A stretch of 64,000 nt of DNA, taken from contig JAFFJZ010000108.1 in NCBI GenBank assembly GCA_018340375.1, positions 1 through 64,000 on the forward strand, given 5' to 3'. The stretch is from Gonatopus flavifemur. Lineage: Eukaryota; Arthropoda; Insecta; Hymenoptera; Dryinidae. A model generated the notes under the pieces. The model was not told where the DNA came from. It was given only the letters and a program-made list of their open reading frames with translations, and ran no database searches. Numbering within the stretch: the first letter of the stretch is position 1; every line of letters starts with the position of its first letter. The position numbers and the translations under genes are program-made. Of the stretch, positions 530-63,753 are shown in pieces.

Positions 530-3500
530 CACTGTTAAAAATTTCTGCATGAATTTTAATGTAAATCTACCGGAAGTTTTTTTCAAGTACGTAACTGAAA
601 ATTCATGTACAGGTTCCACAAATTTCAAGTCTACATACATTAAATTTAATGTACATGGATTTGAAATTTAATGTATGAATAAATGAAATTTGTATATGAA
701 TTTTCATTCGCGTTCCAGAAAAAAACTTCCAGTAAATTTTCTTTGAAACTCATTAAGGACCTTCAAGCGACCCTGGTAGAAATTTTCTCTAGTACTTTGA
801 GAGGCACTAATAAGTTTACCCATATTACTTGTGAGGCACTCATAGGGAAAACTTACGAGTAATTTAGTAGAATGTGACGCTTCACTCAACCAAATTCTAG
901 TCATCAAAACTAGCGAGGCACTCAGTAGTAACTGACCAGGAACTTGTAAAAAACTAACGCCAAATTTATGACAGCAATTATATGCCAGTAAAGATGTGAA
1001 ATTATAATAATACATCAACAATAATTATTCAGTAAAATATTTATGCTTTCCCTGCTTCAAATAAACGATTGATTCTGACCAAATCTGATTGAATGAATAG
1101 TACGTACTTTGGAGCATCAATATTTGACGATTGAGCCTCAATCAGAATTGGTCAGATTTAATCAGAACCAATAGACATGCTTTGATGAATGGTACTGAAT
1201 CAGGGACATACAGGTGAAACAAGGGACACTTCTTCACAGAGAAATGGGGGAAAAAACGTAATCAGATCGAATGAGGTTTGAACATATTCAAGTTTCTGGA
1301 TTCAATAGTCATTTAAACATTTCGATTTTCGCATGATATTTGATAGGATTCAATGATCGGTTCACTTATTGCGATCCAATCAGAATCAAATGGTGGATTG
1401 GAAATAGAAAAATCGGAGATTATATTGATTGGGAATTGATACGGAAATCAACGGATGGACGAATGGGGATGAACCAGCATTTGCCCAGTAATGTTGAAAC
1501 GCAATAGACAATGAGATTGAATAGGAGAAAGAACAATATAAACGGGAAATGGTGGCAATGAGAAATGAATGAGATTGAATCAGAACATTGTGCAGTCGAT
1601 ATCCCGATTGAATACAATTGGATTTATTGAGCATGCCAACGAATCAACCAATATAAATACTTGAGAATCAATCGGTAAATGTACGGAGTTGAGGAATCGC
1701 AATGAATAGGAATTGGAACGTTGTGAGCGAATTTGATTCGTTGAAAGTTTTTCCAGTTAAAAATATTGTCAAAGGGCTGTACATTCGGAATCAGATTCAT
1801 TTGGAGAATAGCTGATTCGATTCTACAGTATTCAGTGATTCATCATACGATTGAGACTCAAAAACTCACTGTAATACTGATATGCAATTTTTCATTTCTT
1901 CAAGATAGATTCAACTGAGGTTGAAAATATTCACCCAGTCGGAGTCAATGAGAGTTTTGCTAATTCTAAATCTCTCTGAGCGAGTGAGATTCCATCAGGA
2001 ATGGGCTCTGTTTCTCAATTGGTTTCGATATGATAATGAACGATTGAATGCTATAATATTCAATGAATTGCACAATTGACCGCATCGGATTCGATAGGGA
2101 TGTAGCCGATTCAAAATCTATAGGCAACTGGAATTCTATCAGAAATAGGCGCTACTACTCAATCGGATTTGATAAGAACATGACCAATAGCGTTCTATAG
2201 TATTCAATGATTTACATTACGATACGGGATGGAAATCACGCTCAGCCGCTGATATACAAGGTGCACTTCTGCAACTGAGTTGTACACAGGAATCGCCTCA
2301 TTTGCCCAGTCGGATTCAATGAGCTTTCAGTCAATTTGAAACATCTGGAACCGAGTGGACCTTTATCAGTGTAGGATCTACTACTCAATCGGATTCGATA
2401 GTGGTATGACCGTTGACATTCTATCGTATTCTTTGAGCCGCATCACGGTATGAAATGCAAATCACACTGACACGCTAATATACGAGGTACACTATTCTGA
2501 GTGTTTCGCGAACAGCAATCTCACGATTGACCCAATGGGATGTAATGAGGGCCGAGCTGATTCTGAACATTTGTAGGCGAATGAAATTTTCCCAGAGATC
2601 GGGTCTACTACTCAATCGGATCCAATAGGAATATGACCGACTGGATTCTATCGTACTCGTCAAGTTATATTAAGATGTGGGATGGGAAGCATACCGAAAC
2701 ACTGATTATGCAAATGGTACTATTCACAATGAGCTATAAAGAGGAATCGCACAACTGACCCCCCGAGTCGAAATTTTGCCCCTACTTTGCTGCTAATAAT
2801 GCTGTTTTCAGTAGGGGGATCAGATAGTAAAGTAGGAGCAGTTTCAATGAGATATTTTCTCCTACTTTGCCCCTACTAGTGGTAGATATTTCCTTTTTCA
2901 CCACTTGTAGGAGCAAAGTAGGTGCAAGATTTATCCTCTACTTTGACCCTACCACTCCTACACGGAGAATACTGCTGCCCGAAAAGATTACTTTTTTTTA
3001 TTTTTTCAGTGAACCAGTAACAGCAAGATTTATAAAATGCATTTTTCCATGAGAATACAAAAGATCACGGGTGCTGTAGAAAACGTAATGGTTAGGATTC
3101 AGATTTTAAACCCGAAATTTTTCTACAGTATTCGTAAGCTTCCGTATTTTCATATAAAAATCCATTTTACAAACCTCTGTTCCTGGTTTACTAAAAAAAT
3201 TTTCAAAAAGTCATATTTTCCAGTGGCATTGTTTCCGTGTATTCAGTCGATTGCAATCTCTGAAGGAACGATTAGTTCATAGTGGTAATAGATATTTTTG
3301 TATATGAGAGAAGGTTTATTCAAATTAATTCAACGATAATATATTGATAATCATTTTCTCCGTCATATTCAAATATGTACATCTACACCATGAATTTATT
3401 TCATATTAAATATAAAAAAGTTTTCTTACCACTTGTATTTATATGCATTTTGATAATCAAGCTTACGTGACAGTGCCAGTCAATAAAAAAGAACTTGAGT

Positions 3501-3573
3501 AATTTGATAAGTTTGTTTTTGATTTCCTCTTACCCAAGTAGAAATCTGACAAGGCATTGTCTAGTCAATATGA

Positions 3574-3813
3574 CCCTGGTGAAAATAAAGCGTGCATTTG
3601 GAGCCTCACATAGGAGTGTTATTACTGTCACATGAGAGTGTATTAAGAGTCAATTGGCGCAGTTGAGCGTGGATCGAGCGTGGAGAAAAGCATTCATGCA
3701 CGCTGTACTCACGCTTATATTGAAGTAAGCGTGCATTGAACACGTATATTGGCCAGAATCACGTTATTGGTACGCTGTTTGAACTTTATGTGCACGCCGT
3801 TTTTTCGCCAGGG
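3574..3813. mobile_element. 240-bp CCCTGGTG-ended MITE
   Basis: The ends are CCCTGGTGAAAATAAAGCGT and the complement of ACGCCGTTTTTTCGCCAGGG. GA lies on both sides (3572-3573, 3814-3815). The body repeats GCGTG / CACGC words. A close copy lies at 46142-46378. Confidence 0.9.
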
Positions 3814-4610
3814 GAGGCCCCTGTAGGGATTTCATAGGGAACTTCTAGTTGAGATAAACTAGCAAGTTACTCACCGGTTACTTACAATATATATTAGACA
3901 AGTGAAACTCTCAAAAAACTATGGAGGATTTTTATAAGTATATCTAGACTGTTACTACACTTGTAAGCCTCGTCAGAAATCATTGAGGCCCTTTCAAGAT
4001 TTATTTGCCAGAAGATGGCAGTGTAATCTATGAGCCTGTGTGAAAATTGCAGTTCGGTTGACAGATGTAAGGTTAAATTTATGTGATCAAAAAATGGATG
4101 AATTATTTTTGTGAAATGTGTGGTGGTTATTTCTTGAATAATGTGTATCAAAAAATCTGTTAGTAAGTGCGAAATGAATTAGTAAATCAGTCATAGCTGT
4201 TGTAACATGTCAAAAAATCGTAATTTGCTGATGTGGTGGAAATGAATTCTATTCGAATACACGACAATATCAACAACAACAATATCAATATCAATCAATA
4301 TCAATATTGATTTACATCAATATTCCTCGGAAAAAAAAACTCACATTAAATTTCTCAAAACTCACATTTCTCAAAAAACTCACATTAATTTTGTAATAAT
4401 ATGAGTCACGAAGAACTCATTTGATCAAAAATATTTCAACCGAATGTTTAGAATGAATTTCAAAAAGCTTGAATTATTTACTTTGTAACGTGCACTGAAA
4501 TTTTCCAAATTTCTTGCCCCTGAAAACATTTTTTCTCCATTACTCCCTTGCAATCAATAAGATAGTCAGACAGGACCTACTACTTACAGAGATCCGTACG
4601 CATATGACTA

Positions 4611-4814
4611 ATGAGCGAGAAACCTGTGAGTAACCCTCACCTTCTCGACGCCCTCAACATCGATACAATAGTATCCTTCTCTTCCGACCCAAACCTGTTA
4701 AGAAATATAGTTCTCCGCCTTACCAACCTCTCAATGCAACCAAGAAGAAACGAAGAAAATGTGCTACGTGAGAGATATTCGGTAAGACGAATCCTCGATG
4801 AGTTATCATTGTAA
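4611..4814 (+). CDS. Small ORF in LTR-like insert, function unknown
   Basis: An intact 67-codon frame from ATG, beginning MSEKPVSNPHLLDALNIDT. Codon choice is richer in C and G than the surrounding AT-rich DNA (ctc gac gcc ctc aac atc), which suggests real coding sequence. Leu-rich and Arg-rich helical stretches are likely (positions 30-65). I recognise no family. A GTGAGT donor-like site at 4624 could instead end a first exon after a few codons. It may be an accessory protein or exon of the element, or a captured host exon. Confidence 0.35.
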   Translation: MSEKPVSNPHLLDALNIDTIVSFSSDPNLLRNIVLRLTNLSMQPRRNEENVLRERYSVRRILDELSL

Positions 4815-6275
4815 ACAATGGCCGAATCATAAACAACCCCGCATTCCGTAGACGAGTAACTCTACTCTTGTCGCCAAGTCAAATTATTTTCATATTTCGA
4901 ATGCAAGCCTCAGTAGCAGTTTTCATCGACAACTGAATAAAATGAATGATTCCTTTCATATTTATTCCAACTTTCAGGTGGACATCATAGTAGTTATAAG
5001 GAACACTCTCTTATCTTCTCATACCGCACAACTAATTCCAAAGTATTCCAAAAGAATTCATAATGTATTCACATCATGCCATAGAATTCCGAAAATTAAA
5101 TACTGAATGAAAACCTGTCCTTCACGAATTCCCCATGGAAAATAATAGAAATTACCATTTGTTATTCGATACAATCGATTATTCCTTCCATGCATCAAAG
5201 ACCGTTCGTATAAGTGCATTCTTGTTGCACATAATGGACTAAATATTTTCAAAATTCAGAGCACGTAAAATGACAACTACACCATTGGATAGAATAGAAA
5301 GATTTCGGTGAACGATGAAATTATCGTGAAATGATTTTATTTCTCTCCCCTAGATAGACTAATAGTTGGTAAGAAACATTTTCATTAATGAATGAACAAA
5401 GTATTGATGGAAATCAAAACTCTCGTTTTGATCAAATTTTAATTTGTAAACTTCGTTCATTCCTCATAAATACCTGTAAGACAAAAAATTTTCAAGTAAT
5501 GTATATAAGTCAAGTACACGAACGCTCGACGCAGAGCAACGCTAGACATCGAGAGTTGGGTGCAAGATAAAAAAATCAGATGATTTCGAAGATGATTAAG
5601 TTCATGATTCAACACCTCGACAGCTTCTAGTCCAGTGATTTCAAGTCCTCATTGGTGCGGACAAGAACATTTCCCACCAAGAGACCCTTGACCAATCATT
5701 GTCTTAGAAGGAAGCTCGAACCCTTTAAATACGGCGAGTTTCTGCTAATGAATTAACAATATTTCTTTGCCTCGCGACAACGCATATTATATTCACTGTT
5801 ACTACCGCTGATTCTTCAAACTTCTTTTCCTTCAACCTACTGAACCGGGAACACACGTTTAACCCGTGTGTCACCTAACATCATATTTTTTTGAAAAGAA
5901 AAGAACATAGTCCTTTTCAGGACTATTCGAAATTATAAATATTTTCAAAAATTCAACTCTGCGGTCCTGAGTTACGAAAACCAGGTCCACAAGTAGAAAG
6001 CGCAATCCGCCCATAACGAGATTAGTTTCTTTGAGAAACTCTGGGGAAAAAGGAACCTTGTTTCCTTTTTTCTGTTTTCTTCTTTTTTCTTCTCACCAGT
6101 GTTTTTGTGTTTTTTTTTGTGCGTGCTCTTATCCTTCCTTGTGAAAAGTGATTTTTTTTTGTAATGGAAAGAATTCAATGGAAACCACCTTCCCTTTTTC
6201 TCTTTTATTAGAATTTTCTTTCAAAATCATCGCAATTCAACTCGAGTCAACTTCAAGGTTTTTTTTGGTTTTTTA

Positions 6276-6541
6276 TAGTGAGGGACCGGGTGAACAAAAG
6301 GATAACTCAAATTAAAAGATTAATTCGTAGCATTCATCAGCGCATCGCGGAACGGGATGAAAAGGCAGACCGCGGTGATCTTCCCCCTCCGGGACCCAAA
6401 CTAAGAATTTTTCTGAGAAACGGGGCGCGAGATGATAAAAATCTCGTTCGTTATACAAGAGAGTTAGAAAACTTAAACTTATTTCTAGCATCTCTTGACA
6501 TTAGAGGCGAACTTTTCGCTCCTAAAGAAAATTGGGATTAA
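6276..6541 (+). CDS. Possible terminal exon or small ORF, function unknown
   Basis: The frame runs from about 6276 to a TAA at 6539-6541 (about 87 codons). It is preceded by a long pyrimidine tract ending ...ttttttatag, a good 3' splice acceptor, so this could be the last exon of a spliced gene rather than a protein starting at the GTG. The N-terminal half is basic and helical (KRITQIKRLIRSIHQRIAER), followed by a Pro-Gly linker (DLPPPGPK) and a second helical half ending KENWD. Base use is more GC-rich than the neighbours. I do not recognise the family. The small frame at 4611 lies on the same strand 1.5 kb upstream. Confidence 0.35.
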
Positions 6542-6807
6542 CAACCCAGTATTCTACAATCACATCTCCATGAATTCTCCCACAACTCATTCCAAACACT
6601 AATTACTATCCCAACCTTCTACTTCTGTCAGCATTAGTGCTCGTCGTACAAGGATTCTTTTGAGTAGAGATTTCCTATCCAAACTCTTTTTCCTTATTTC
6701 CCTTCGATCGCAATGAAGCTAACTGAGTGATCCTCTTTCCCCTCCTTCTTTCCCCATACTCGACTACATGCGTAAATTTTCATGTATTCCAGGAGGACGG
6801 ATATCTC

Positions 6808-6890
6808 TCTCTTTCTATTCATATATCTCTCTCTTTCTATTCATATAGCTCTCTCTTTCTATTCATATATCTCTCTCTTTCTCTACGATA
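6808..6890. repeat. ~23-bp CT-rich minisatellite
   Basis: Four tandem copies of a unit like ATATCTCTCTCTTTCTATTC, just upstream of the 137-bp MITE in the LTR-like insert. Confidence 0.8.
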
Positions 6891-6949
6891 CTTCCTATTC
6901 TTCAATCTTTCTCTTTTACTCCCGTGTTTAAAGGGTATATACATATGTT

Positions 6950-7086
6950 CCCGTACAACACGCGGACATTTCTCCGTCGCCTCCACGTCGCTTCTCCGTT
7001 CTTTCCACCTTGTATCCACATCTCCCTTTCTTCCACCTCGCCTCCACGGAGATGCGACGTGGACATCGGTGGATGTGCTGTGTGGG
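6950..7086. mobile_element. 137-bp CCCNNACARCAC-ended MITE
   Basis: The ends are CCCGTACAACACGCGG and the complement of ATGTGCTGTGTGGG. TT lies on both sides (6948-6949, 7087-7088). The body is made of CTCCGTCGCCTCCACG-like words. It is the innermost layer of the nest. Confidence 0.85.
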
Positions 7087-7658
7087 TTCCAACACCTGAA
7101 AGAGCGGGAATTAAAGAGTTTGAATCTAATATAAGGTCATTCACACGATAGGAAGAATAATCACTTACAACTACCGAGTAACCCTCGGAGTACAAGCTGA
7201 TTGCGCTCCCCGAAGAAAGCCACGATTTCCTTTGTAGGATGAGATGTTCTTTCCCTAGATCATTAATTTTCATTGGGTAACCCCCAAAGAAATATATTGG
7301 TCAATCAAAAATTATAAACCAACTTTCGATGTCCTAGAATATTTTCTTCTCATTACATGAACATTAGTTAAATGATTTAATTAAATATTTTATAGAACAT
7401 CATACGATTATACTTCCTAGCACCCTAAACATTATAAATTAACAAACTTTCCATTCTTTTTTCTCTTTTTGGAATAAACAAATTGTAATTTTAACATACA
7501 TGAAACGATTTTCATTGAAAAACATCCTACCCTGGTCCTTGTATGGGTCAATCCTATCTAAAGCGGGGTGATCAAAGGGGTTGTCAAACTTGATTTGGCA
7601 ATTCCTTGAAATAATCGTGCGTTATTGAGAAGTTCACGGACTTTTGACGTAACAACTT

Positions 7659-8612
7659 GAAGCGCGTTGGATGATTTTACTCTTTAAATTGAAGAGTATT
7701 CTTGAAGTTGAAATTTTCAAATTTGAGAAAAAAGCCTTATGTTCTGAGTTGAATTTATTGTTAGGGTGATGATAAACTTGTAGGAAGAGTTTGAAAGTTG
7801 GGTGGGATCTATATTGATCAGGAAAGTCCAAATCGTGTGGCAAAAGTTAGAAAATCTGTCAACTTGGCTCACGGCACATGGATATTCTATCAGCTTTCCT
7901 TCACTAAACGAAATGTAGGCAGGAGAAATGTATCAAAATTTAGTAAAATCAAGTTGGTACAGAGCAAGAGAGGACATATATATTCATTGGATTTTATTGG
8001 TCATTATAGAAATGTTGATAAATAAGGAAAGGCTATGTATGACTCAATTTATCGTCTCTCAATATTTTTGTTCCAATAATGTTGTATCATGTTCCTCCAA
8101 ATAAATGTTATTATATTTATGAAACAGGTTCAATACACATGTTTCCTCAACCTACTAGTGAAAAGATACAAAGATGCACACAATACAAGATCATTGAAAC
8201 AAAAATATTGAGAGACGATAAATTGAGTCATACACAGCCTTTACTTATTTATCAACATTTTTATAATAACCAATAAAATTCAATGAATATATCTGTCCTC
8301 TCTCACTCTGTACCAACTTGATTTCACTAAATCCTGATACATTTCTCCTGCCTAGATTTCGTTTAGTGAAGAAAAGCTGATAGAATACCCACGTGCCGTA
8401 AGCTAAGTTGACAGATTTTCTCACTTTTGCCACACGATTTGGACTTTCCTGATCAATATAGATTCCACCTGACTCTCAAACTCTCCCCACAAGTTTATCA
8501 TCACCCTAACAACGGATTCAACTCAGAAAATAAGGCTTTTTCCTCAAATTTGAAAATTTCAACATGAAGAGTACTTCTCAATTTGAAAAGTAAAACCATC
8601 CGTCAAGCCGCA
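7659..8612. repeat. Internal palindrome of P copy A
   Basis: 7659-8038 is the reverse complement of about 8226-8612, with a loop of ~190 bp that itself folds. The same structure occurs at 39537-40485 and 50190-51155. A frame reading ...SPNRVAKVRKSVNLA... stays open in 7798-8025, on the other arm (8245-8433, minus) and in copy C (50324-50557). In copy B it is in phase but has a stop. Confidence 0.8.
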
Positions 8613-9060
8613 AGTGAATAATCCAAGTTTTTTGCAATCCATTTTTAACATTCTTCTGACATATTTTTGATCAAATAAGTTCTTCATGACTCATATTTAT
8701 TACAAAATTAATATGATCTCTGAGTTTTTGCCTAGAAGTACTGATGTAAGTATTTGAAGAAAATTTATTTTCACTGCATCAACAAATTACGATTTTTTGG
8801 CATGTTACAACAGCTATGACTGATTTACTAATTCATTTTGCAATTACTAACAGATTTTTGATACACATTATTCAAGAAATAACCACCACATATTTCACAA
8901 AAATAATTCATCCATTTTTTGATCTCATAAATTTAACCTCACATCTGTCAACCGAACTGCAATTTTCACACAGGCTCATAGATTATTATATTCAACCGAC
9001 GGATGATTGAATCGGATAAACACGTCACTTTAATTGATCTTTTCTATTGCATCGCGTAGG

Positions 9061-9155
9061 TACCGGTTCAGCTTAGGTCGTTAGGGCGCTAGGATGGTAG
9101 ATCGTGCAACATTAGGTAGGAATTGGTTTAGGTAGGTTCGATTCTCTCCGAGGTT
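9061..9155 (+). other. tRNA-like Pol III box module in P copy A
   Basis: An A-box-like AGCTTAGGTCG (about 9070) and a B-box-like GGTTCGATTC (9135-9144) lie ~60 bp apart. The spacing is longer than in most tRNAs and no cloverleaf forms, so this is a SINE-like or decayed tRNA-derived segment, not a tRNA gene. The same module is in copy C (51600-51695) and on the minus strand in copy B (27698-27795). Confidence 0.5.
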
Positions 9156-10315
9156 TCCAATATTCTCTCCATCGCATTGAGCACGAAGTGAACGTTGGTG
9201 GTAATCTGCAAGTGTCTCCTCTGAAACATGATTTTTGCTCAGAATTCAATTTTTTATTTTCAAAAACATTTTGGGCCAAAGCATGCATATTTTACTGGAT
9301 AATCATTGTTGATGTATCATTATAACTTTACAATTTTTTTTGGCATATAATTGCTGTCAAAAACTTGTTGGTAATTGCTAGTATTTAGAGAGTAACTAAA
9401 TAGTAACTGACCAGTATCTTGTGAATTCCACTAGCAAGTGCCTCATAACACACAGCGTTACATTACGAATAAGTACCTGGTGAGTTTTCCTCAAAAGGCC
9501 CTCGTCAGGAGTATAGAAAAACTCACGAGGCACTAGCCATTGACTAGGCGTAATTTCTACTTGGGTATAATTCAAGTCGGGTATTCTATTCTTTATACAC
9601 CTACATAAAACATTCAGTTGAAAACAAATCTGATGGATATTCATTTGGGTAAAGACAAATTTGACTTGATTCTAAAAAACAAAATTTTTTTTGATTCTAT
9701 AAAATAAATATTTATTTTAATGAAATGAATGTTTAATTTGAATCAAGTAATAATTATTAGATTCGTATGTGAATAAGAATCTATTTGTTTGATGGATATA
9801 ATTTTGATTTAATTGAGAAAATGCGCTCTATGTGATATTATTATTATTATTCGGAAAATCCAACATGTAGGAGCATTAGGTTCTATGTAGGAGCAGTAGA
9901 TTGTGGAGTAGAAAAATAGAATCAAAAAATATTCGAAGCGGAGAAGTAGGACCAAGTAGTTTCTATAGTGTGAAAATAGGGGCAATTTTACTGATTGGAT
10001 CGACAAAGCAGGGGCAAAATTTCGACTCAGGTAGAATCAAAAATATTCGGAGCGGGCAAGTAGGAGCAAGTAGTTTCTGTAGCGTGGAAGGAGGAGCAAT
10101 TTCAGTGACTGGATTGACAAAGCAGGGGCAAAATTTCGACTCCGGCCAAGTGGATCCAATGGGGGTTCAACCGATCCGAAACATTTGTTTGTGAATCAAA
10201 TTTCTTCAGAGACAGACTCTAGTACGGAACCGGATTCGCTACGGGTACGATGGATTGGATTCTATCGTAGTCAATGAGTCACATGAAGATACACAATTAT
10301 ATCATGCCAAAACAT

Positions 10316-10412
10316 CCCTAACAGCACACTCGGTTGCATTTCCGTAGTCTCCACGTGGATACGATCTATCTCCGTGGAGATCACGGAGATGCGACGGAGT
10401 GTGCTGTTAGGG
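10316..10412. mobile_element. 97-bp CCCTAACAGCACAC MITE
   Basis: The ends are CCCTAACAGCACAC and the complement of GTGTGCTGTTAGGG. AT lies on both sides (10314-10315, 10413-10414). The body repeats CTCCGTGG / CCACGGAG words. It sits in the 226-bp array; removing it restores the unit spacing. Confidence 0.9.
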
Positions 10413-10568
10413 ATGGTTTTGCAAATTACACTATTCAAAATGAGTTGTAAAAAGAAATCGCACAACTGACCCAATTGGATCCAATGGGCAATTAGCCGAT
10501 TCACAACATCTGTTTGCGAATAAAATTTCATCAAAGATAGACTGTACTACTCAATCGGATTCGATATA

Positions 10569-11746
10569 CCCAAACAGACACGAAGATATCTTTTGGAATT
10601 CTAAAAGATATCTTCCAAAAGTACAAGAAGTCTTGAAGAATTTTCTAAAAGATATCTTTTCGTATTCGAAAAGATGTCTTATGCAACATGAATAGATTTC
10701 TTAAAGATGTCTTGGAGACTTCTCCAAGATATCTTTAAGAAGAAATTAAGAAATCTAAAAGAGTTCTTCAAGATTTCTCAAAGATGTCTTGCAAAATTCA
10801 TAAAAATGTCTTGGAAGAAGCTTGAATTTATTCACGAAAAAAAATCGAACCCCTTCTTGTTCCTTCTCCTCCCTCCCCCCATATTTGTATTTGTCGCTCT
10901 CGCACTCCTATGAAGTTGACTTTATCTCAACCCTTAAGGTTGCGGGAATCGAACCCGCGCATCCTACGATGTACTTACGCTTCAGTGACCTGAGCTATAG
11001 AGACAGTTCGGTTTTGATGCTTATGATTGTCAATATAACACAGTGGAATCGTGTCAGTGGTGTACATTTTCAGAGGAGAAGTGATCTTTTGAAAAAACTG
11101 TTATTATATAAACAAATGTCAGATAAGTTGGTCGTGGATACCAAAGATTCTTCCTAAATTATTTCTATCCCAACGTTATTGAAGAATAACTTATTAATGA
11201 GTTTGAATGAGAATTTTTTTGAATTTACTTGAAGGCTGTACATAAAATTGAGCGTGAAAAGTTCAGTAATTTGTAAAATATTTGTGTCTTGAAGATTCGT
11301 TAATTCCAGCGCGGGTATTAAAAGGTTACAAAATCGTAATTTTCGCACAATTTAAAATCTCTTGGCATGTTTATAGATTTTTCAAGCTTTCAATTTGTGA
11401 CCGAATTTATCACATGTGTAATTCGATTATAATTAAAGGCACATTCCGAGTGTTATTCATGTCAATTCATATGATCAGGTATTCATAACCTAAACCTGCT
11501 GACAATCTATCTTCTTAAACATATTTTGTCGAAGTCTTCCAGGAAAATATCTTTCAAACGCTTCTCAAAGATATCTTTAAGATATCTTGCATGGTCGTCT
11601 TGGAGATGGTTTGAATCGAGACATCTTTTAGAAATCTTTCACAAGATGTCTTTCCAACACTTCTGAAAGATATCTTCAAGAACGTTCTTGAAGATCTCTC
11701 AAATAGTATTCTTTTAGATATCTTCAAGAACTGCGTGCTGTGTGGG
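10569..11746. mobile_element. 1.18 kb CCCANACAG-ended element with AAGATATCTT arrays
   Basis: The ends are CCCAAACAGACACG and the complement of GCGTGCTGTGTGGG. TA lies on both sides (10567-10568, 11747-11748). Both subterminal ~230-bp zones are arrays of the palindromic word AAGATATCTT and variants. The middle (10840-11500) contains a tRNA-like segment and otherwise no gene that I can support. Confidence 0.85.
10938..11004 (-). other. tRNA-like segment (decayed tRNA or SINE head)
   Basis: On the minus strand, an A-box-like TAGCTCAGGTC is followed by a perfect T-arm GCGGGTTCGATTCCCGC. The D-stem is mismatched and the acceptor stem does not pair, so it is not a working tRNA. Confidence 0.55.
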
Positions 11747-12241
11747 TAGAGACATGACCAATTGGATTCTATAGTCTTCTATAGTTCACTGGTTCATATC
11801 ACGATAGAGGATGGGAATCATACTGAGATGCCGATATACAAGGTATACTATTGCAACTGAGTTGTAAACAGGAATCGCCCAATTGACTCAATCGGATTCA
11901 ATGGAGGGTTAGTCGACTCAGAAAATCTGCAGACGAATGAAATTCTATTGAAGAGAGGTTCTACTACTCAATCGAATCCGATCATGGTATAGCCGATTGG
12001 ATTGCATCTTATTCAATGAGTCATATCAATATACGAAATCTAAACCACACTGAACACCCTGAAAAGTATTATATACCTTCTGATCAAAAAGTACTCGGAA
12101 TTCACTATTCAAACAAACCGCGCTTGAGATATTGTCGGAATCTTTTGTTTTCCATCTTATTTCATCTGTTATTTAGCGCTCAAATGTCTGTTTGTGCCTC
12201 ATTCGTCAGAAGTTAGTGCGTGTTGCCTTGTAAACGAGTCA

Positions 12242-12566
12242 CCCTTGTAAAATGATTCATATATGGCCCATATATAAACTGTATTCGATTCATATATGGT
12301 CATATATAAATCATATCTAATTCATATATGTGGCATATATGACCATATAAAATTCTCAATATCGTTCAATCCATATAATGACCAAACATGACCCATATAT
12401 ACGATACATAACGCCATATATGAAATGTATATGGCCCATATATGAATGTCTGAAATCATATATGGCCCATATATGAATTATATAGGGGTCATATATGAAT
12501 CTGTGAAATCATATATGTACCATGTGTGGTCATATATGCCGCATATATGATTCATTTTTACAAGGG
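12242..12566. mobile_element. 325-bp CCCTTGTAAAA MITE made of CATATATG palindromes
   Basis: The ends are CCCTTGTAAAATGATTCAT and the complement of ATGATTCATTTTTACAAGGG. CA lies on both sides (12240-12241, 12567-12568). The interior repeats the perfect palindrome CATATATG and GGCCCATATATG about fifteen times. It is inserted in the leader of the mariner. Confidence 0.9.
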
Positions 12567-12596
12567 CAGTGTTTGTTGTGGTCTGCGAATTTCGCA

Positions 12597-13208
12597 ATGT
12601 CGAATTTGGTTGAGCAAAGAGTTTGTCTAAAATTTTGTGTTTTTAACAAAATTTCATGTGCGGAAGCGTTGGAGATGTTAACAGAAACCTACGGGGACTC
12701 GATGTCGAAAACACAAGCGTACGAGTGGTACAAAGAGTTCAAAGCAGGTCGTATTGTGGTTGATGATTTGCCTCGTTCCGGTCGTCCATCCACCAGTGTC
12801 ACTGACGGAAATATTGATAAAATTAAAGAAATCGTCCTCGCAAATCGTCGTCTGAGCATTAGGGAAATAGCATTCGATCTTGGTGTCTCGTTCGGATCGG
12901 TGCAGAACGTTATGCACAATATTTTGACCATGAGACGAGTTGAAGCACGGCTTGTGCCGAGAGTGTTGGATTTGTTGCAGAAACAGCATGGCACTGATGT
13001 AGCTGAACAAATGCTCTCTTTGGGCCAAAATGTTATCGAAGGCATCATCACCGGTGACGAAACATGGGTCTATGAATATGATATCGAAACCAACCAACAA
13101 TCATCGGAATGGCGCTTTTCAGACGAGTCAAAACCTAAAAACCACGACAGAGTCGATTTAAAATCAAGGTTTTGTTGACTGTTTTCTTTGATTGCCGTGG
13201 TGTGGTCC
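12597..13208 (+). pseudogene. mariner transposase, N-terminal part (split by E)
   Basis: The frame from the ATG at 12597 encodes the paired helix-turn-helix DNA-binding region of a Tc1/mariner transposase (TQAYEWYKEF, DLPRSGRPST, then the RRLSIREIA second HTH) and reaches GDETWVYEYD, the first catalytic Asp of the D,D34D triad. A one-base deletion in an A-run near 13137 shifts the frame before FFDCRGVV, and the gene is cut at 13206-13208 by element E. The next residues, HSEFLPPGQTVNKEYY, are on the minus strand at 17962-18036 because of an inversion. The second Asp and the C-terminus are missing. Confidence 0.9.
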
Positions 13209-13259
13209 CCCGGGTTAAAATTTTTAAATCGCTGGAATGAAAATATACGGTACTGTTAC

Positions 13260-13580
13260 GGATGTGTTGCGGGCGCATCTGTACTGAACCCGCAATAATA
13301 CTGTAAGCACCCGCACCACGCCCATAACAGTCCCGTATACGCCTGCACCACATCTGCAACACTCCTGCACACGAAAATGATTACGCCCGCACCACGTTTG
13401 CACCAAGGCCGTTTGGCGAACCGTATACCCGCAACACGATTGCACCATAGCTGCACTAAACCCGCAAACAGTGAATGACGATGGACGATAAATCTCGGAA
13501 CGTGTTCGCACCAAGACCGCACCAAGCCCAGAACATGCATGCAATAGAGCTGTACCAGGTCCGCACCAGACCCGTAAATG
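13260..13580. repeat. 11-bp subterminal repeats of E
   Basis: Quasi-tandem units near the consensus ACNCCNGCAMC (for example ACCCGCACCACGCCC, CCTGCACCACATCTGC). The same units occur near the other end of E (about 16925-17145) and mirrored in copy 2 (18045-18270, 21600-21935). Such arrays are typical of transposase-binding regions. Confidence 0.7.
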
Positions 13581-14617
13581 TCGAAATTACTGTTGCAATG
13601 CGTGCTTAAGGGCCCTCGAGCACAGTAGAACTGTGAATGTGTAGGTACACACATATTGCACATAGGTATAGTTGAAGCGAGGAAAACTTTGCTCCAAACT
13701 TTTGTGCAAAATAGCAATTGATGTGAAATTTAAAAAATATTTCACCATAGTGCTTATTTGGGATTGCGCCATAAATATAGATGTAGCGGTGAAATCACTT
13801 TCCATTCTCTGTAAAAAATTCGTGAATACGCGAGACGATTTGACATTTCATCGTCACCATGTTGATATTGAAAATATCTTAAGATGCAAGTGGCAGCTGC
13901 GTTTCAAAGTAAACATTTGATTATTTTTTATTATATTCAAAATTTCAAGGTTTTCGAAATAATCAATCGATTGATGGAATTTTTCAATATTGCACGTGAT
14001 TTATCGTAATAGAACTTATATGTATATACAAATGAAACTATTCCGCATGGAAAAATTACATTACACTTCTCATGAACCCTTCATAAATGTGATTGAATTG
14101 AGATCGATTAGTTTGGTTATTATCCCGCATAAGATTTGATCGACAAAATTTTTATTCATGTATAAAGAAAGAGGACCATTTATTTAGAGAAAGAACGATC
14201 TTTGATTATGATGAACGAATTGTACGTGTAACGGTCAATTACCGATACATCGTTTTGATTATAATTCTACGTACGTTTATGTTAAAATTTTATGTCATTC
14301 AAAAAAGTATAGTTCACGAGAAATATGACATAATTTTGATACTGAAATGTATTTTATGATAAGTAATGTCAATTATATACGTTACAACACTTTTACAACA
14401 TATTTTGTTTCACAGTGTGAACTTTTGAAGAGCTTTATAATCATGGAAAAAAACTTTGATATTCTGACCATAGAAAGAATGTTTAGGTTTCTCCAAAACG
14501 CAACCTCCAACTTTATTTCACGATATTTCCAAATTTAACATGGCGGTGACGAAATGTCAAATCGTCTGACGTATGTACGAAATTTTCTTTATATATATGA
14601 ATCGAGAATGATTCCAC

Positions 14618-14772
14618 CAAGGGCGTATCCAGAATTTTTTTTTGGAAGGGGCCTATGTTAAGGATGTATCTCTATATATACGAAATATATAGATATATAA
14701 AACACGAAAAAATGCTGGATTTGGGGGGGGGGGGTCCGGACCCCTTGGACCCCTCCCCTGGATACGCCCTTG
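14618..14772. mobile_element. hAT-type MITE in E copy 1
   Basis: The ends are CAAGGGCGTATCCAG and the complement of CTGGATACGCCCTTG. The 8-bp duplication GATTCCAC / GATCCCAC (14610-14617, 14773-14780) has one mismatch. The body has a G-run and a matching C-rich half. It is shared with E copy 2, so it was present before the copies separated. Confidence 0.85.
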
Positions 14773-16415
14773 GATCCCACCGCTGGATTCATATTCAAGG
14801 CGTACTTCCAGGCACTATGGTGTAATATTTTTCAAATTTCATCTCAATTGCTATTTTGCGCCAAACGTTTGTGCGGAATAGTAATTGATACGAAAAAATA
14901 TTATACCACTGTGCTTACCTGGGATTGCCCAGTGTTTACCCGCACTGAGAAGAATTCATCATTAAAAATTACTGGTTTTTGTCAGTAGACGAGGGATATA
15001 CTTGACATGTGATTACAAATTGATGGGGAATATCAGTAATTTTTTATAGCGTTATTTTAATCGAAAAAAAAATTTTATCCTCACCGGCATCGAACATCAT
15101 TGTTCGTGATCACAAACCTGGCTTATTTCCCCGAAGCCACGCAACAATCTTGAAAATGGGATGGTTTTCAATTCATATCAGTGTCATCAATTAAGAATTT
15201 TCGTTTACAACTTGTATGATAAAAGATAACTGTTTTTCAACATGAATTCTCATCTCTCTCTGGTTTTAATTTTCAAACTTCGGAGCATGAAAAATTACTG
15301 TTTTTCTCATCAATTTGTGATCTCAAGCCAGGTATATAAAATCGTTATGTCAAGTATATCCCCCGACTAATGGGAAAACCAGTATTTTTTGATAATGAAT
15401 ATCTCTCAGTGTGGGCTGTACCTCTATTTCCTGTAAAAAATTCGTAAATACGTGAGACGATTTGACAGTTCGCCGTCGCCGTGTTGCTTTTGAGAATATC
15501 GCAAAATGCAGTTAAAAGCGACGTTTTGGAGTAAGTATTTTTTTTATTACCATGTTCAGAATAACAAAACAATTTTTTTCAATCGTGAATTTTCTACAAT
15601 TTCACCCCATAATGTGCTGTGAAAGTGATAATGTATATCGTTGTTTTTATTCCGCATAAACAAATATTCCAGTGTAAAAATTGCGTTGCATTTCCCGTGG
15701 ACTATGCATGTGTGTATGAAATCAATATTTTACATAACCGTATGTAGAATAATGTGGAGAAAACGATGTATCGGTAATTGACCGTTACACGTACAATTCG
15801 TTCATCATAATCAAAGATCGTTCTTTCTCTAAACAAATGGTCCTCTTTTTTTATAAATGAATAAAAATTTTGTCGAGCAAATTTTATGCGGGATGATAAC
15901 CAAACTAATCGATCTCAATTCAATCACATTTGTGAAGGGTTCATGGGAAGTGTAATGTAATTTTTCCATGCGGAATAGTTTCATTTGTATATACATATAA
16001 GTTCTATTACGATAAATCACGTGCAATATTGAAAAATTCCATCAATCGATTGATTATTCCGAAAACCTCGAAATTTTGAATATAATAAAAAATAATCGAA
16101 TGGTTACTTTGAAACGCAGCTGCCAGTTGCATCCCAAGATATTTTCGGAATCAACATGGCGACGACGAAACGCAAATCATCTCGCGTATTCACGAATTTT
16201 TTATAGGTAATGGAGAGTGATTTTACTGCTAGATTTATGTTCACGGCGCAATCCCCGGTAAGCACTATGGTAAAATATTTTTTAAATTTCACATCAATTT
16301 CTATTTCACACAAACGTTTGGCGCAGAGTTTTTCTCGCTCAGACTATACCTATATTCTGTAAAACCAATATAAATTTTGGGAAAAATAATTTGTGTCATA
16401 CACACAGCGTTGTTT

Positions 16416-49604: not shown

Positions 49605-49793
49605 CCCTGGTGAAAATCGAATGTCAGATTATGTCAGATTTAGTGTGATCTGACATAATATGACATATTGTTCCAAAAAACTGGTCAGTTTTCGTCAGAA
49701 TCCGACACCTTCTGATCAAAATAGGCCATATGTCACAATCTGACCGGTTTTTGGAACAAATGTCAGAATCCTGACATCTGATTTCCACCAGGG
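49605..49793. mobile_element. 189-bp CCCTGGTG MITE of GTCAGATT words
   Basis: The ends are CCCTGGTGAAAATCGAATGTC and the complement of ATCTGATTTCCACCAGGG. AT lies on both sides (49603-49604, 49794-49795). The body is an array of GTCAGATT / AATCTGAC in both directions. Confidence 0.9.
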
Positions 49794-52203: not shown

Positions 52204-53390
52204 GTAATTTCTACTTAGGAATGTCGCCTTACGGTCGTTTCCTCGTTTCCAATCCAAAATGAACTCTTTCCGATTACTTTCCGTGATTGTCATCCATGCG
52301 CGTGATTTACATATTCATAGGACATTCAGTAAGCAGCTGATTCAATTGGAAATTGTAACAATATGAAAACCATCGGGGAACCTAGAACTTATACGAAAGT
52401 CGTCGGTTGGTCGTTCCATAGTCGCTTTATATGTCCGCACTTGATTTGCGAATAATTAACCCTGAAGTGAATCTTCCAATAGGATTATGATGCGGTTACA
52501 GCCTTTCCTCAGTAAGATATAAACCACAAATTGTAAACGAGATCGCGATCAGATCAAAAAACGAAATCACCAGTGAATTTCCGAAAAAGTCACCCTTTGG
52601 TCGTTTCAAGGTCGCTTTACGATCGTTTATCGTTTCCAATCCAAAATGAACTCTTTCCGATTACTTCCCCGTGATTGTCATCCATGCGCGTGATTTACAT
52701 CCCTGGTTAAAAGGTCAAATAGAAACTGATAAAACCGATTCAAAATTAATCGGAATGAATAGGGTCAATTGGAGAGGCTCAACTACCGATTCAAGATGAA
52801 TAGGAATTAATTGGAACGTGGTACATATAGGATTGAATCGAGGATTTACCGATAGAAAAATATTTGTTTTATTGGAATTAATATGACTTTCAGTGATCAA
52901 TCGGTTTGTATGAGAGATATCTGATTGAGAATATGAAAATTTCTCCATTTCATGAGGCAAATGGTTTTTATCGGAAATTTCCATGACCTAAAGCTATTGG
53001 AACCGATCGTAAATGTTACGTAATGGGAAATTTAATCGGTTTCTATGAAGAATGTCCAATTCGATTAGAGTTCGTACAGATTTGATCGGTCTGTAGGTTT
53101 TAATCGGATTATTCCACTATCCGAATTCATGGGGAATAATAGGACCATTTACGGATCTGAAAATTGAATAGGATTGAATGAGAAATATCCAATTCGAATT
53201 CAGAATTCCTTTCAGCGGATTAAATTATCGGTTTTTATCAGAATTTTCGGTGATTTCGGTCTATCGGAACCAATGGGAAAATTGTAAAACATTCAAGACT
53301 TACTGGGTTTCTATCCAGAATATCCAATTCGATTTGAGTTTGTTTATTTTATTGGTCAATAGGTTTCAATTGGATTATTCGATCATCCCA

Positions 53391-53651
53391 CACTGAAAAA
53401 AAAGGTGAGTACAGACAACGGTGATATAGTTGATTCAACAGTAGAATACGATTTGATACATCCAACTGAATCTGACTGTTGCCTCAACTATATGCACTGC
53501 TGACTCAACTACATGCAGTTGAATCAACCATCATGGTGTCAAGTCAACGATTATACTGTCAATCTGATCATATATTCGTTGACTTGACTATGATATTCAG
53601 TTACCCTAACAACAAAATATAATTGATTTTCGATGAAATTTTTTCAGTGCA
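53391..53651. mobile_element. 261-bp CACTGAAAAAA MITE in G copy 2
   Basis: Orthologous to 23987-24247, flanked by CA on both sides. Confidence 0.85.
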
Positions 53652-54329
53652 ATCTGAGGGAAATAAAAGGAATATTTACGGATTGAATATTCAATCGCAT
53701 TGAATGAGAAATGTCCAATCCAATTTCAGACTTTATTCCACCGCATTAGCCCTGGTTAAACAATCCGATAAGATCCGATAGAAACCGATTCAGAATTAAT
53801 CGGACTGCATAGGATCAATCGGAACAGTTCAATCCCTGATTCAAAATCAATAAGAGTTTATCGGAATCTCTCTTCTATAGGTTTCAATCGGGGATTCACC
53901 AATTAGAAATCTGCATTTTATGGGAATTAATCAAACTTCACATAATCTATTGGTCTGTTGAAGAGATATCTGATTGATGATTGAATTTTCTCCATTCCAT
54001 CAGCAAACGGTTTTTATCGGAAGTTTCCACAATCTCAATCTATTGGAACCAATGGGAAAATTTGTGAAATTGAATGATGAATGGGTTTCTTAAGGGAGAT
54101 TTCTGACTGCATTTGAGGATGTATCGATTTCATTGATCAATGGGTTTTAATTGGATTATTCCAACATTCAAATCTATTGAAAATAATAGGCAAATTTACA
54201 GATTCTAAAGTCCTATAGGTATGTACCGGCAATAACCGATTCAGTTCTGAAATTTCTTTCATTTCATCAAATCATTGGTTTCTATCAGAATCCCTGGTGA
54301 CCTCGATGTATTGGAACTAATGGGAAAGT

Positions 54330-55445
54330 TGCTGGAATAGGGAACTATGATCATAGAATACCAAGAGAATCCAATTAGAAAATGTTTCATTGGTATCAAT
54401 CGGAATTTTTATCAGTGATGGAATATCCATTGATCCCACTGAAAAATATGTTACAGGTACCAATTATAATTGTAATGATTAATAAAATGCCGATTAAATC
54501 AAATTAAAAAATATTGTGTTCGTACGAATTGGAATTTTTATTATTGATAAAATACCTATTGGATGCCATTGAAAAATATTTGACTGGTATCAATTAGAAT
54601 CTTCATGATTAATAACATACCGATTGAATTCAATTGGAAAATATTGTATTGGCATCAATCAGAATTTTCATTGGTCATAAAATACCAAGTGAATGCAATT
54701 ACACAATATTTCATTGATATCAATCGGAATAATTATTATTGATAAAATATCAATTGGATCCCATTGAAAATATTTGACTGGTATCAAGTGAAATTTTCAT
54801 GATCGATGAAATACCGATTCAATCCAATCAAAAAATATTTTATTGGTATCCATCGGAATTTTTTATCAATCATAAAATACCCATTGAATCTAACGAGAAA
54901 ATATTTTCTTGGGATCAATTGGAATTTTTATGATTAATGACATACCCATTGAATTCTATTGAAAATATTTCACTGATATCAATTAGAATTTTAATGATCA
55001 ATAAAATACCTATTTAATCAAATGAAAATATTTTCTTGGTATCAATAGGAATTCTTATTATTGATAAAATACCTATTGGATGCCATTCAAAAATATTTGA
55101 CTGGTATCAATTAGAATCTTCATAATTAATAACATACCGATTCAATCCAATTGAAAAATATTGTATTGGCGTCAATCGGAATTTTCATTGATCATAAAAT
55201 ACCAAGTGAATCCAATTACACAATATTTCATTGATATCAATCGAAATTCTTATTATTGATAAAATACCTATTGGATCCCATTGGAAAATATTTGAGTCGT
55301 ATCAATTAGAATTTTCATAATTGATAAAATACCGATTGAATCCAAATGAAGAAAATTGTATTGATATCAATCGGAATTTTTCATCCATCATAAAATACCG
55401 ATTGAATCAAATTGGAAAATATTCTCTACGTCTTCATTGGGATTT
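54330..55445. repeat. 65-bp tandem repeat array in G copy 2
   Basis: Same unit as 24890-26330, about 17 units, so unit number differs between copies. Confidence 0.8.
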
Positions 55446-57330
55446 TTATTATTAATGAACTCCCATGCTCTCATTAAGACCGATACAATCCCTCATATGT
55501 CCAATGAACTATTACCAATTGAATTTATTACTATAGGACACTCATCCATCACCATGTTAATAAGACATAAATGATCGTTTGAATTTATTTCAGCAATAAT
55601 TCGTCATACGTAATGATTGAATAAATGATATATGTGTTTGTTTAATTGATATAAAATGCGCGTATATAATGTATATAAACCGTTCGTTGGTTGGGTGACC
55701 AACCAATAAAATCCAATAAGAAAATCCCGATGCAGGAATCAATTCGTTCCGATAAATTGTTTTTATCGGATTTAATCGGATTTTTTCACCAGGGAAAATG
55801 TCGATTGAATCCAGTTAAAAATTATTTTATTGGTATCAATGGGGAATTTCCGATGCAGAAACTCAATCCATTCCGATGGAATGTTTTTTTATCGGATTCA
55901 ATCGGATTTCTTAACCAGGGGAAAGACCGATTCACTCCAATTCAAAATTATCTTATTGGTATCAATAGGAAATCTCCGATGCAGAAATCTCAATTCATTC
56001 CGATAAAATTTTTTATCGGATTCAATCGGATTGTTTGACCAGGGATATTCATAGGACATTCAGTAAGCAGCTGATTCAATTGGAAATTGTAACAATATGA
56101 AAAACCATCGGGGAACCTGAAACTTGTACGAAAGTCGTCGGTTGGTCGTTCCATAGTCGCTTTATATGTCCGCACTTGATTTGCGAATAATTAACCCTGA
56201 GGTGAATCTTCCAATAGGATTATGATGCGGTTACAGCCTTTCTGAAGTAAGATATAAACCACAAATTGTAAACGAGATCGCGATCACATCAAAAAACGAA
56301 ATCACCAGTGGATTTCCGAAAAAATCACCCTGTGGTCGTTTTAAGGTCGCTTCACGGTCATTTTCTCGTTTCCAATCCAAAATGAACTCTTTCCGATTAC
56401 TTCCCGTGATTGTTATCCATGCGCGTGATTTACATATTCATAGGACATTCAGTAAGCAGCTGATTCAATTGGAAATTGTAACAATATGAAAAACCATCGG
56501 GAAACCTAAAACTTATACGAAAGTCGTCGGTTGGTCGTTCCATAGTCGCTTCATATGTCCGCACTTGATTTGCGAATAATTAACCCTGAGGTGAATCTTC
56601 CAATGGGATTATGATGCGGTTACAGCTTTTCTGAAGTAAGATATGAACCACAAATTGTCAACAAGATCGCGATCAAATCACAACACGAAAGTATCGGTGG
56701 ATTTCAGAAAAAGTCACCCTTTGTTCGTTCAAGGTCGCTTTACGGTCGTTTTCTCGTTTCCAATCCAAAATGAACTCTTTCCGATTACTTCCCGTGATTG
56801 TTATCCATGCCCGTGATTTACATATTCATAGGACATTCAGTAAGCAGCTGATTCAATCTGAGATTGTAACAATATGAAAAACCATCGAAACCTAAAACTT
56901 ATACGAAAGTCGTCGGTTGGTCGTTCCATAGTCGCTTCATATGTCCGCACTTGATTTGCGAATAATTAACCCTGAGGTGAATCTTCCAATAGGATTATGA
57001 TGCGGTTACAGCCTTCCTGAAGTAGGATATAAACCACAAATTGTCCAGGAGATCGGGATCAAATCCAAAATCGCACGGATCAGTGACTTTCCGACAAAGT
57101 CAGCTTTGGTCGTTTTAAGGTCGCTTTACGGTCGTTTCCTCGTTCCCAATCCAAAATGAACTCTTTATGAGTTTCTCACGGGATTAGTATCCTTCCGTTC
57201 AATTCACATATCAATAGCCCTCTCAGTGAACACATACTCATGCATTCTGAAATAACAATTATATGAAAGACAAATTCATTTGACCTGAACATTATGTGAA
57301 AGTCGTTTGTTAGTCGTTCCAGGGTCGTTT

Positions 57331-58640: not shown

Positions 58641-58849
58641 CACTAACAGAAAGGATCTCTTGAAACAAGAAAATTTTTCTTGCCGCTGTGACAAAACTCA
58701 TTTTTTTCTTGTGCCCAGAAAATCTCTTCTGAAATCAAAACCAATTTTTCTTGATTCAAGTAAAATTTTCTAGGCTCAAGAAAGAAAAATGAGTTTTGTC
58801 CCAGCGGCAAGAAAAATTTTCTCATTTCACGAGAACCTTTCTGTGAGTG
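58641..58849. mobile_element. 209-bp CACTNACAG hairpin MITE
   Basis: The ends are CACTAACAGAAAGGATC and the complement of GAACCTTTCTGTGAGTG. CA lies on both sides (58639-58640, 58850-58851). Copy of the 31172-31397 family. Confidence 0.9.
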
Positions 58850-62598: not shown

Positions 62599-63250
62599 TT
62601 ATCTATACCCGTATGAAAATATTTGGCTGAAAAATTTCTGCAAAACCATGATAAATCTTCAAAGAACATCGCATTTTCTCTGAAAAACTTTGACAAACTC
62701 TGAGAATCCCTGAGATTTTTATGAAAAATCTAATAAATTTGGGACATTCTGTACAGACTGTTCTCAGAGTTTTTCAGAAACTTTCCAGAACTTTTCAGAG
62801 TTTTTTCGTTTGTTTGTAGACAAATAGGAACGAAATTCCGCTCTGAAAAAACTCTGAGAAATCGTCAACATTGGTCTGATTATTGAAATATTCTGAAAAC
62901 CTATAAATAAATGTATATGCTGAATTCAAATATCATATGTCAAAAGTGTTTGAAAATTTTCAAATTCTTCTTCAATAGTCAGAAAAATGTTAATAATTTA
63001 TCATCGTTTTGTCAGAAGTTTTTCAGATAGCAATTCCGTCCTCATTTCTCTGAAAAATGAGAATCCTGAAAAATTTCTGAAAGCTCTGAAAAAATTTAGT
63101 ACAGAATGTCCCAAATTTATTAGATTTTCATAAGAATCTCAGAGATTCTCAGAGTTTTTCAGATTTTTGCAGAGAAATTGCGATGTTTTCCAGAGATTAA
63201 TCATGGTTTTGTAGAAATTTTTCTGCGGAATATTTCCATACGGATAGAAG
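62599..63250. repeat. ~650-bp hairpin of CTGAGAATC words
   Basis: Left arm (ATACCCGTATGAAAATATT...) pairs with the right arm (...AATATTTCCATACGGATAG). The inside repeats TCTGAGAATC / CTCAGAGTTTTTCAG. The same words return at 63860-64000, so another copy may start there. Confidence 0.75.
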
Positions 63251-63386
63251 TGATATTTCAGTTGTACAATGGAAATTATTGTTGCATTAGCCGAAATCTA
63301 GCCGTTGCAGCAATATTTTGGCTATCCAAATATTAAACACGCGAAATAGCTACCACAGCTAATTCCTGACTACCATAGCAAATCAT

Positions 63387-63612
63387 CCCTGGTAGAAATG
63401 TTACAAGTTCTTCTCTATGGCCGATGAGGCACTAGAAAAGGAAGAAGTAATTGAGAAAACTAGCAAGGGGCTAGTCAATAACTGGTAAGTTGGATTCAAC
63501 TAGCATTGATTGGGAAAACTAATGAGCTACCCGTCACTATCCACTAATCCAAACTAATTAATAATAAATAGAGTAAAATCTTCTCTAATAATTACAAGTA
63601 TTCACTCCAAGT
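63387..63612. mobile_element. P-type terminal fragment
   Basis: Begins CCCTGGTAGAAATG after AT and is the reverse complement of 41041-41261 (GGTACTGG, CTAGCGAGG and AATAATTACAAGT words), i.e. the end of a P-like element without its partner. 63251-63386 shows no gene. Confidence 0.65.
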
Positions 63613-63614
63613 AT

Positions 63615-63753
63615 CCCTGGTAGAAATAAACTGTCAACGATGCCACGGAGTATCATAAAGATTGAATGCAAATGTACACGAAGAGGAGATTCACGCATTT
63701 TGGAGTGTAAAATTACACTCCTCGCGCGAATGTACATCATATTTTTACCAGGG
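63615..63753. mobile_element. 139-bp CCCTGGTAG MITE
   Basis: The ends are CCCTGGTAGAAATAAAC and the complement of ATATTTTTACCAGGG. AT lies on both sides (63613-63614, 63754-63755). A central inverted pair GAGTGTAAAATTACACTC is present. Confidence 0.9.

Follow-up and report, generated by a model that had tools for sequence, protein, structure and literature searches.

Densely nested, probably CACTA/EnSpm-type elements with two-base-pair duplications, common tips and differing interiors in Gonatopus flavifemur

The 64,000-nucleotide stretch of Gonatopus flavifemur contig JAFFJZ010000108.1 analysed here (the window, on the contig called C12 in genome set G000, which holds 402 contigs and 636,049,841 bases) is densely filled with jumping genes that lie one inside another and of which at least a part are CACTA (EnSpm) elements; they have common tips and leave a two-letter scar, and they differ in their interiors, often in the repeated words found there. 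The observation on which this work builds, made in a sequence-only reading of the window, that inserts with shared ends and 2-base-pair (bp) duplications crowd this DNA, is confirmed as a whole. We consider it likely that the inserts are cut-and-paste CACTA/EnSpm transposons of the CMC clade, mostly short non-autonomous derivatives, which are mobilized by a RAG1-like transposase and kept in families by repeated words, as proposed below.

Two-base-pair duplications at the inserts and in their genomic copies

The sequence-only reading had listed 24 starts of inserts flanked by clean 2-bp duplications of varied sequence; all 24 lie where it had placed them, and a right end with a matching duplication was found for each (Table 1). 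These right ends are not independent evidence, because the starts had been picked for their duplication, the ends could slide by up to 8 bases and a duplication was rewarded with a score bonus; for the elements starting at 1050, 6950, 10569, 12242, 22463, 23987, 41351, 46142 and 53391 the two tips agree at 9-11 of their first 16 bases. Empty sites were therefore sought for all 24 starts and for 771, 31172 and 48619 by joining the two flanks with a single copy of the dinucleotide between them and aligning the join to the window and to every fetched locus. Ten of the 24 have gap-free empty sites there (1050, 2762, 6950, 16416, 22463, 27879, 30093, 46142, 49605 and 52701). The alignments for 10569, 53391 and 63615 were gapped or poor and that for 23987 weak, and none of these was counted; the remaining ten starts gave no empty site in the same loci, and apparent empty sites of 10316 and 10569 in a first comparison were not upheld as gap-free on rerun. 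The joined flanks of the outermost element (530-42324) form an open frame of 177 residues within the open reading frame (ORF) of a long interspersed nuclear element (LINE). The three inserts outside the list (771-41261, 31172-31397 and 48619-48812) have no clean 2-bp duplication.

Genomic copies of individual families gave the same result. The 49605 family has 156 first-look candidates, of which 40 were scored and the majority align edge to edge; all eight fetched copies are flanked by exactly 2 bp (AC, GT, AA, GA, CA, CA, AT and CA). For the 10316 family 40 of 398 candidates were scored, 36 of them aligning over bases 1-97 and the other four to within two bases, and again all eight fetched copies carry exactly 2-bp duplications, three of the eight not being independent because they share their host repeat with the window copy. 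Longer duplications at genome-wide copies, which would have counted against the claim of a 2-bp scar, occur in none of these 16. The 6950-7086 insert is absent at 36 of 40 scored genomic places, present at three (contigs C12, C37 and C52) and one-sided at one; contigs C37 and C52 are near-identical to the window contig across the tested parts and are possibly alternative haplotypes.

A scan for inverted repeats with tandem arrays masked, in which tip trinucleotides represented by 8 or more cases were ranked, places CCC first in the window (2-bp duplication in 6/11, p=0.0045) and also in 200 kb of held-out DNA, two 100-kb stretches of contigs C323 and C392 (20/50 against a background of 14.7%, p=1.4e-5). 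In the held-out DNA 3-bp duplications accompany only 2 of the 50 CCC cases, and duplications of 4 to 6 bp none. Unmasked, CCC ranks first in the window (8/14) and sixth in the held-out DNA (24/90, p=2e-4), behind TAC, CCA, GTT, GTC and GCG; the held-out scan was redone with masking because the unmasked one was dominated by tandem repeats. With slightly different collapsing of overlaps, the list of CCC-tipped elements with 2-bp duplications holds 22 from the held-out DNA (20 in C323 and 2 in C392) and 7 from the window. A search for long-range pairing with 2-bp duplications was set aside, its results being dominated by segmental copies and by the large palindrome that spans about 13.2-22.0 kb. 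That AT-rich repeats produced the whole pattern by chance, and that a reader seeking 2-bp matches picked it out, is a reading with some footing in the fact that such matches flank about 15% of arbitrary inverted repeats; the empty sites, the genomic copies and the held-out enrichment make it very improbable, and where a gap-free empty site exists, as at ten elements, chance is already refuted.

The claim that the families share their ends is supported by a tip model built from four CCC-tipped window families: half of the held-out families (9/18) score within the top 5% of CCC sites. The tips have an A-rich stretch in common at positions 8 to 12. The interiors are unrelated between families, as had also been claimed; among 18 window elements the only alignments join 3574 with 46142 and 31172 with 58641, apart from 15 bp between 6950 and 10316.

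The transposase and the class of the elements

The insert at 27879-39367 is an 11.5-kb CACTA/EnSpm element, with CA-type tips (CACTGTAAAAA) and a TA duplication. In members of the CMC clade C(2)C and H(3-4)H lie between the second D and the last E of the DDE core, and the duplications measure 2 to 5 bp (PMC12730594); the transposase of 27879-39367 carries this signature spread over two ORF pieces (Table 1). It has at least 73 genome matches at 30-100% identity, counted from 69 scored of 678 candidates and including some that are pieces of one copy; a comparison of viral contigs with the transposase alignment gave 39 pattern matches and no relative. A structural model of the relative P0002, 40% identical to the window protein, is RAG1-like in fold, as expected of this clade. 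The RAG1-like core fold and the C-x2-C/H-x4-H signature are features in common with Transib and RAG1. Transib elements make 5-bp duplications, in contrast to the 2 bp here, and word arrays are not known from them.

Related transposase-bearing elements were found elsewhere in the genome. Elements A and B both have CACTGT tips and a TA duplication, a third, element D, was read at one end only (left tip CACTGTAAAAAATG), and a copy located on C323, whose protein is 98% identical, has its right end at the same base as 27879-39367 and then a new flank. For D no right end was found, for the C323 copy no left end, and for a further lineage, C (C240:965375), neither end. Element B lies within C57:1637773-1652150 (loci L031 and L032) between two inverted arms, each about 1.4 kb long and 99.3% identical to the other, with a copy (96%) of the 45279 element of the window in each. 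The outermost window element, within which most others are nested, is likewise of CACTA/EnSpm type: in a comparison that, among the CAC families, covered this one, it was found to have both its ends and its subterminal words in common with a transposase-bearing element, namely B, and it aligns with the right end of B over 29 bp at 90%.

CCC-tipped CACTA elements of animals have been described as "TRC", with SmTRC1 and its Tribolium and Aedes relatives (PMC1636069) and EnSpm-4N1_HM/Spongebob of Hydra (PMC4298943) as examples. CCC tips and a 2-bp target duplication are common to these and to the CCC-tipped elements of the window, and Transposase_21 is the domain of SmTRC1; the difference, going by the available portions of these accounts, is that single elements per species are described there, whereas here many families with different interiors occur together and no transposase is yet linked to the CCC class. 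Under the tip model the Tribolium tip falls in the top 1.7% of CCC sites, and the tips from Aedes (11.8%) and Hydra (16.5%) fit weakly and not significantly. The genome has 90 Transposase_21 matches, 80 of them over the cut-off, and 2 of the 90 overlap the 73 matches to the window transposase. When long CCC elements able to encode a protein were sought, one ORF of 779 residues between inverted repeats came up; in a 1.5-kb stretch upstream of one Transposase_21 locus no tip was seen by eye.

The CCC elements are most likely of this published animal type. They may well use transposases of the same superfamily, since CCC-tipped animal CACTA elements with 2-bp duplications are on record (PMC1636069, PMC4298943, as far as the available text of these goes) and Transposase_21 matches are numerous here. 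The rival is a mixture of two superfamilies, in which CAC tips mark CACTA/EnSpm and CCC tips a look-alike superfamily that also makes 2-bp duplications. The two kinds of tip do differ, a transposase is linked here to CAC tips only, and the two sets of protein matches scarcely overlap; yet the published TRC elements are CACTA relatives and SmTRC1, in the part of its description available, has Transposase_21 (PMC1636069), the Tribolium tip fits the model, and the many Transposase_21 loci of the genome could serve CCC elements. We therefore regard such a mixture as improbable.

Tips, words and the proposed separation of families

Among the transposase lineages the tips are nearly constant and the words differ between most of them. 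The tips are near-identical in A, B and D. Word sharing was measured, after removal of the tips, as the number of exact subterminal 9-mers in common, against 100 dinucleotide shuffles for ten pairs of elements; an earlier test with a mononucleotide control, in which unrelated pairs were also in excess, is superseded by it. Element B and the outermost window element have 31 9-mers in common, a number reached in 0/100 shuffles, and eight other pairs were equalled in 5, 6, 22, 43, 51, 59, 60 and 82 of 100 shuffles; A has words in common with neither 27879-39367 nor the outermost element beyond chance. Left and right ends of a single element have words in common in 27879-39367 (1/100 shuffles as high) and in the outermost element (0/100).

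The sequence-only reading had held that each interior is made of one repeated short word. To score this, the best word of a single arm was compared with random genomic segments, for 16 window elements and for 18 of the 22 held-out CCC elements, the four longer than 800 bp being excluded. The mean percentile is 0.79 in the window (p=3.8e-4; 6/16 at or above 0.9) and 0.81 in the held-out set (p=2.7e-4; 8/18 at or above 0.9). Clear cases are 10569, 12242, 16416 and 31172, and no word signal was seen in single arms of 41351, 41874 and 63615; the claim thus survives as a statistical tendency with clear cases and fails as a rule. A whole-element test, in which 12/18 exceeded all shuffles, overstated the signal, since either arm of an element is an inverted copy of the other, and was replaced by the single-arm tests.

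In the mechanism that we propose, the short CAC or CCC tips would be the cutting sites of a RAG1-like DDE transposase, encoded by transposase-bearing elements like 27879-39367, and insertion with a 2-base stagger would leave the 2-bp duplication, a step for which the duplications, the tips and the transposase are the evidence. The multi-copy words, which occur in both orientations, are most likely binding sites that would tie a family to its own helper, by analogy with TNPA of plant CACTA elements (PMC2613891, in its available part); their reader could be the transposase itself, through its N-terminal zinc fingers, or a second protein. Between lineages the words would change fast and the tips little, which is how families could stay separate. 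The interpretation given in the sequence-only reading is thereby supported in part. Its suggestion that tips and a multi-copy word would suffice for transposition is conjectural. Its suggestion that new families arise by replacement of the word fits the transposase-bearing elements, with their nearly constant tips and mostly unshared words; the direction of change is one that we infer.

Several observations weigh against this reading. No transposase was seen here inside a CCC-tipped element, and the bare trinucleotide CAC shows no excess of 2-bp duplications (5/23 in the window, 10/58 held-out). The window transposase ORF has no match to Pfam Transposase_21, a domain matched by 15 of 27 aligned proteins. 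As to the words, 10/18 held-out and 10/16 window elements fall below the 90th percentile, the 9 shared 9-mers of 27879-39367 and D (2/100 shuffles as high) are weak for ten pairs, and two pairs for which no match is claimed are borderline, 27879-39367 with B (5/100) and A with the outermost element (6/100). Left and right words are weakly related in A (11/100) and unrelated in B (85/100). The ends that were read come from only four transposase lineages, one of which (D) was read on its left side alone. Compared with the window copy, identity is 46% (D), 35% (A), 26% (B) and 26% (C) in the zinc fingers and 58%, 52%, 42% and 39%, in the same order, in the catalytic core, but 31%, 30%, 18% and 20% in the stretch between them; the linker being less conserved than the fingers, there is no special support for the fingers as the changing part.

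Two further readings have to be set beside the proposed mechanism. The words could be by-products of tandem duplication and fold-back growth rather than binding sites, with families diverging by drift. This would account for the several elements without a word excess, for those that are mainly long inverted repeats, for the 65-bp tandem arrays held by long members and for the two transposase-bearing elements with weak or no left/right agreement; it does not account for words that recur in both orientations even within single arms, nor for the words that B has in common with the outermost element and, weakly, 27879-39367 with D. We see it as a tentative possibility. The other reading takes the mechanism further: families would speciate by vocabulary, the fast-evolving DNA-reading part and the word changing together while core and tips stay constant, and each new word would found an isolated family. 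This is somewhat doubtful; the linker identities and the number of pairs tested weigh slightly against both it and the transposase-and-word mechanism.

Parts of this picture are already known: shared ends with a 2-bp duplication from animal CACTA elements, and family-specific words from plant ones. In the available part of PMC2613891, plant CACTA elements have fixed tips, family-specific subterminal repeats and a partner protein; the likeness to Spm/En, Tam1 and soybean Tgm lies in short conserved tips, family-specific subterminal repeats in two orientations and non-autonomous derivatives. The same source gives a 3-bp duplication for the soybean element, against 2 bp here, and the 3 bp of plant-type En/Spm were not seen in the 16 fetched copies or at the gap-free empty sites, all exactly 2 bp; it also gives the plant elements a separate DNA-binding protein (TNPA, TNP1), whereas the candidate readers here are zinc fingers on the transposase. 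In the open-access literature we found no report of family-specific words in animal CACTA elements, and no precedent for so many families lying together within a single animal genome, with the word paired with the transposase lineage. A genome with at least 73 transposase matches, 90 Transposase_21 matches and 22 held-out CCC elements makes the coupling of word and DNA-reading domain directly measurable. How new families of such elements split off, a process linked to a RAG1-like enzyme, can be put to a natural test here, and word replacement as their origin is now testable.

Coordinates and neighbouring features

Table 1. Elements and open reading frames of the window, followed by two transposase-bearing elements on other contigs
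Feature	Position	Strand	Tips	Duplication	Remarks
Outermost element	530..42324	.	CACTGTTAAAAATTTC (16/16)	TG	inside LINE ORF
CCC-tipped element, 26.5 kb	1050..27570	.	CCC (11/16)	TT	4 gap-free empty sites
Element	2762..10145	.	CCCGAGTCG	CC	insertions inside; gap-free empty sites in 2/3 matches
Element	3533..9565	.	CCCAAGTAGAAAT	TA	no empty site in window or fetched loci
Element	3574..3813	.	CCCTGGT	GA	word around TGCACGCT; same family as 46142-46378
CCC-tipped element, ACAGCAC-like class	6950..7086	.	CCC	TT	gap-free join, 5/5 fetched copies
Element, 97 bp	10316..10412	.	CCCTAACAGCAC	AT	genomic copies
Element	10569..11746	.	CCCAAACAG/CCCACACAGCAC	TA	words of GATATCTT kind; empty-site alignments gapped
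Element	12242..12566	.	CCCTTGTAAAA	CA	word CATATATGG
Element	16416..16715	.	CACTCAGAGAA	TT	word TTTGCTAT/AGCAAA; gap-free empty site 18532-18418
Element	22463..26915	.	CCCTGGTT	AT	gap-free empty site 22031-22149; 65-bp tandem array inside (24897-26320)
Element	23987..24247	.	CACTGAAAAAA	CA	weak right tip (10/16); left-end sister of 53391-53649
Transposase-bearing CACTA/EnSpm element, 11,489 bp	27879..39367	-	CACTGTAAAAA	TA	gap-free empty sites; subterminal word ACGTAGGTAA/GTTACC
Element	30093..30433	.	CCCTGCTTTAAAA	TA	word ATCTGATT; gap-free empty sites 29416-29533, 29728-29815; adjoins 305-bp tandem array 29132-30092
Element	31172..31397	.	CACTTACAG	none (flanks TC/TT)	sister of 58641-58849
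Element	31599..31706	.	CCCATACAGCAC	TT	
ORF with CIDE-N domain	33147..33800	-			PF02017, E 7.4e-11
Downstream transposase piece	34177..34752	-			H-x4-H and last E
Transposase ORF	34803..36731	-			N-terminal C2H2 zinc fingers; RNase-H-type core with first and second D, C-x2-C
Element	41351..41616	.	CACGGAGAAAA/CACTGAGAAAA	TG	no word excess in single arms
Element	41874..41981	.	CCCCAACAGAAC	TT	no word excess
Element	45279..45539	.	CACAGTAAAA	TA	word GTGTTGAA/TTTAACAC, one arm
Element	46142..46378	.	CCCTGGT	AT	3574-3813 family; gap-free empty site 46028-45954
Element	48619..48812	.	CCCTGGTGG	no clean 2 bp	
Element	49605..49793	.	CCCTGGTG	AT	word GTCAGATT; gap-free empty sites; genomic copies
Element	52701..56044	.	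CCCTGGTT	AT	gap-free empty sites 52254, 56377, 56765; among 389-bp tandem units; 65-bp array inside
Element	53391..53649	.	CACTGAAAAAA	CA	word ACTCAACT, one arm
Element	58641..58849	.	CACTNACAG	CA	word TTTTCTTG
Element	63615..63753	.	CCCTGGTA	AT	no word excess
Element A	C345:1797297-1804508		CACTGT	TA	
Element B	C57:1639773-1650744		CACTGT	TA	

Some features stand apart from the 2-bp pattern. The 771-41261 insert has tips CCCTGGTAGAAATTT that agree at 15/16 bases, and its flanks are, by eye, an 18-bp direct repeat TTAAGGACCTTCRAGCGA with one mismatch rather than a 2-bp duplication; no other copy of its site was found in the fetched loci. An 827-bp element at 22471-23297 with CACGGTGTAAGAAGAA tips (16/16) lies within the left tip of 22463-26915 and is flanked, by eye, by an 8-bp direct repeat CCCTGGTT, and therefore probably belongs to another superfamily. 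Also by eye, 58869-62596 has CACAGGCCTGCGA tips and a possible 3-bp TTA duplication around ORFs at 59737-61146, the first ORF inside it giving a weak zf-AD match.

The 65-bp arrays at 24897-26320 and 54353-55453, both within long CCCTGGTT elements, are related, and the CCCTGGT tip recurs inside them. The CATATATGG-word element at 12242-12566 lies directly upstream of a mariner-like transposase ORF (12507-13178) with a mariner-type helix-turn-helix domain. About 13216-21982 is taken up by a very large, near-perfect palindrome whose words are of the GCACCAC/GTGCGGG kind; only one of its arms contains the 16416 element.

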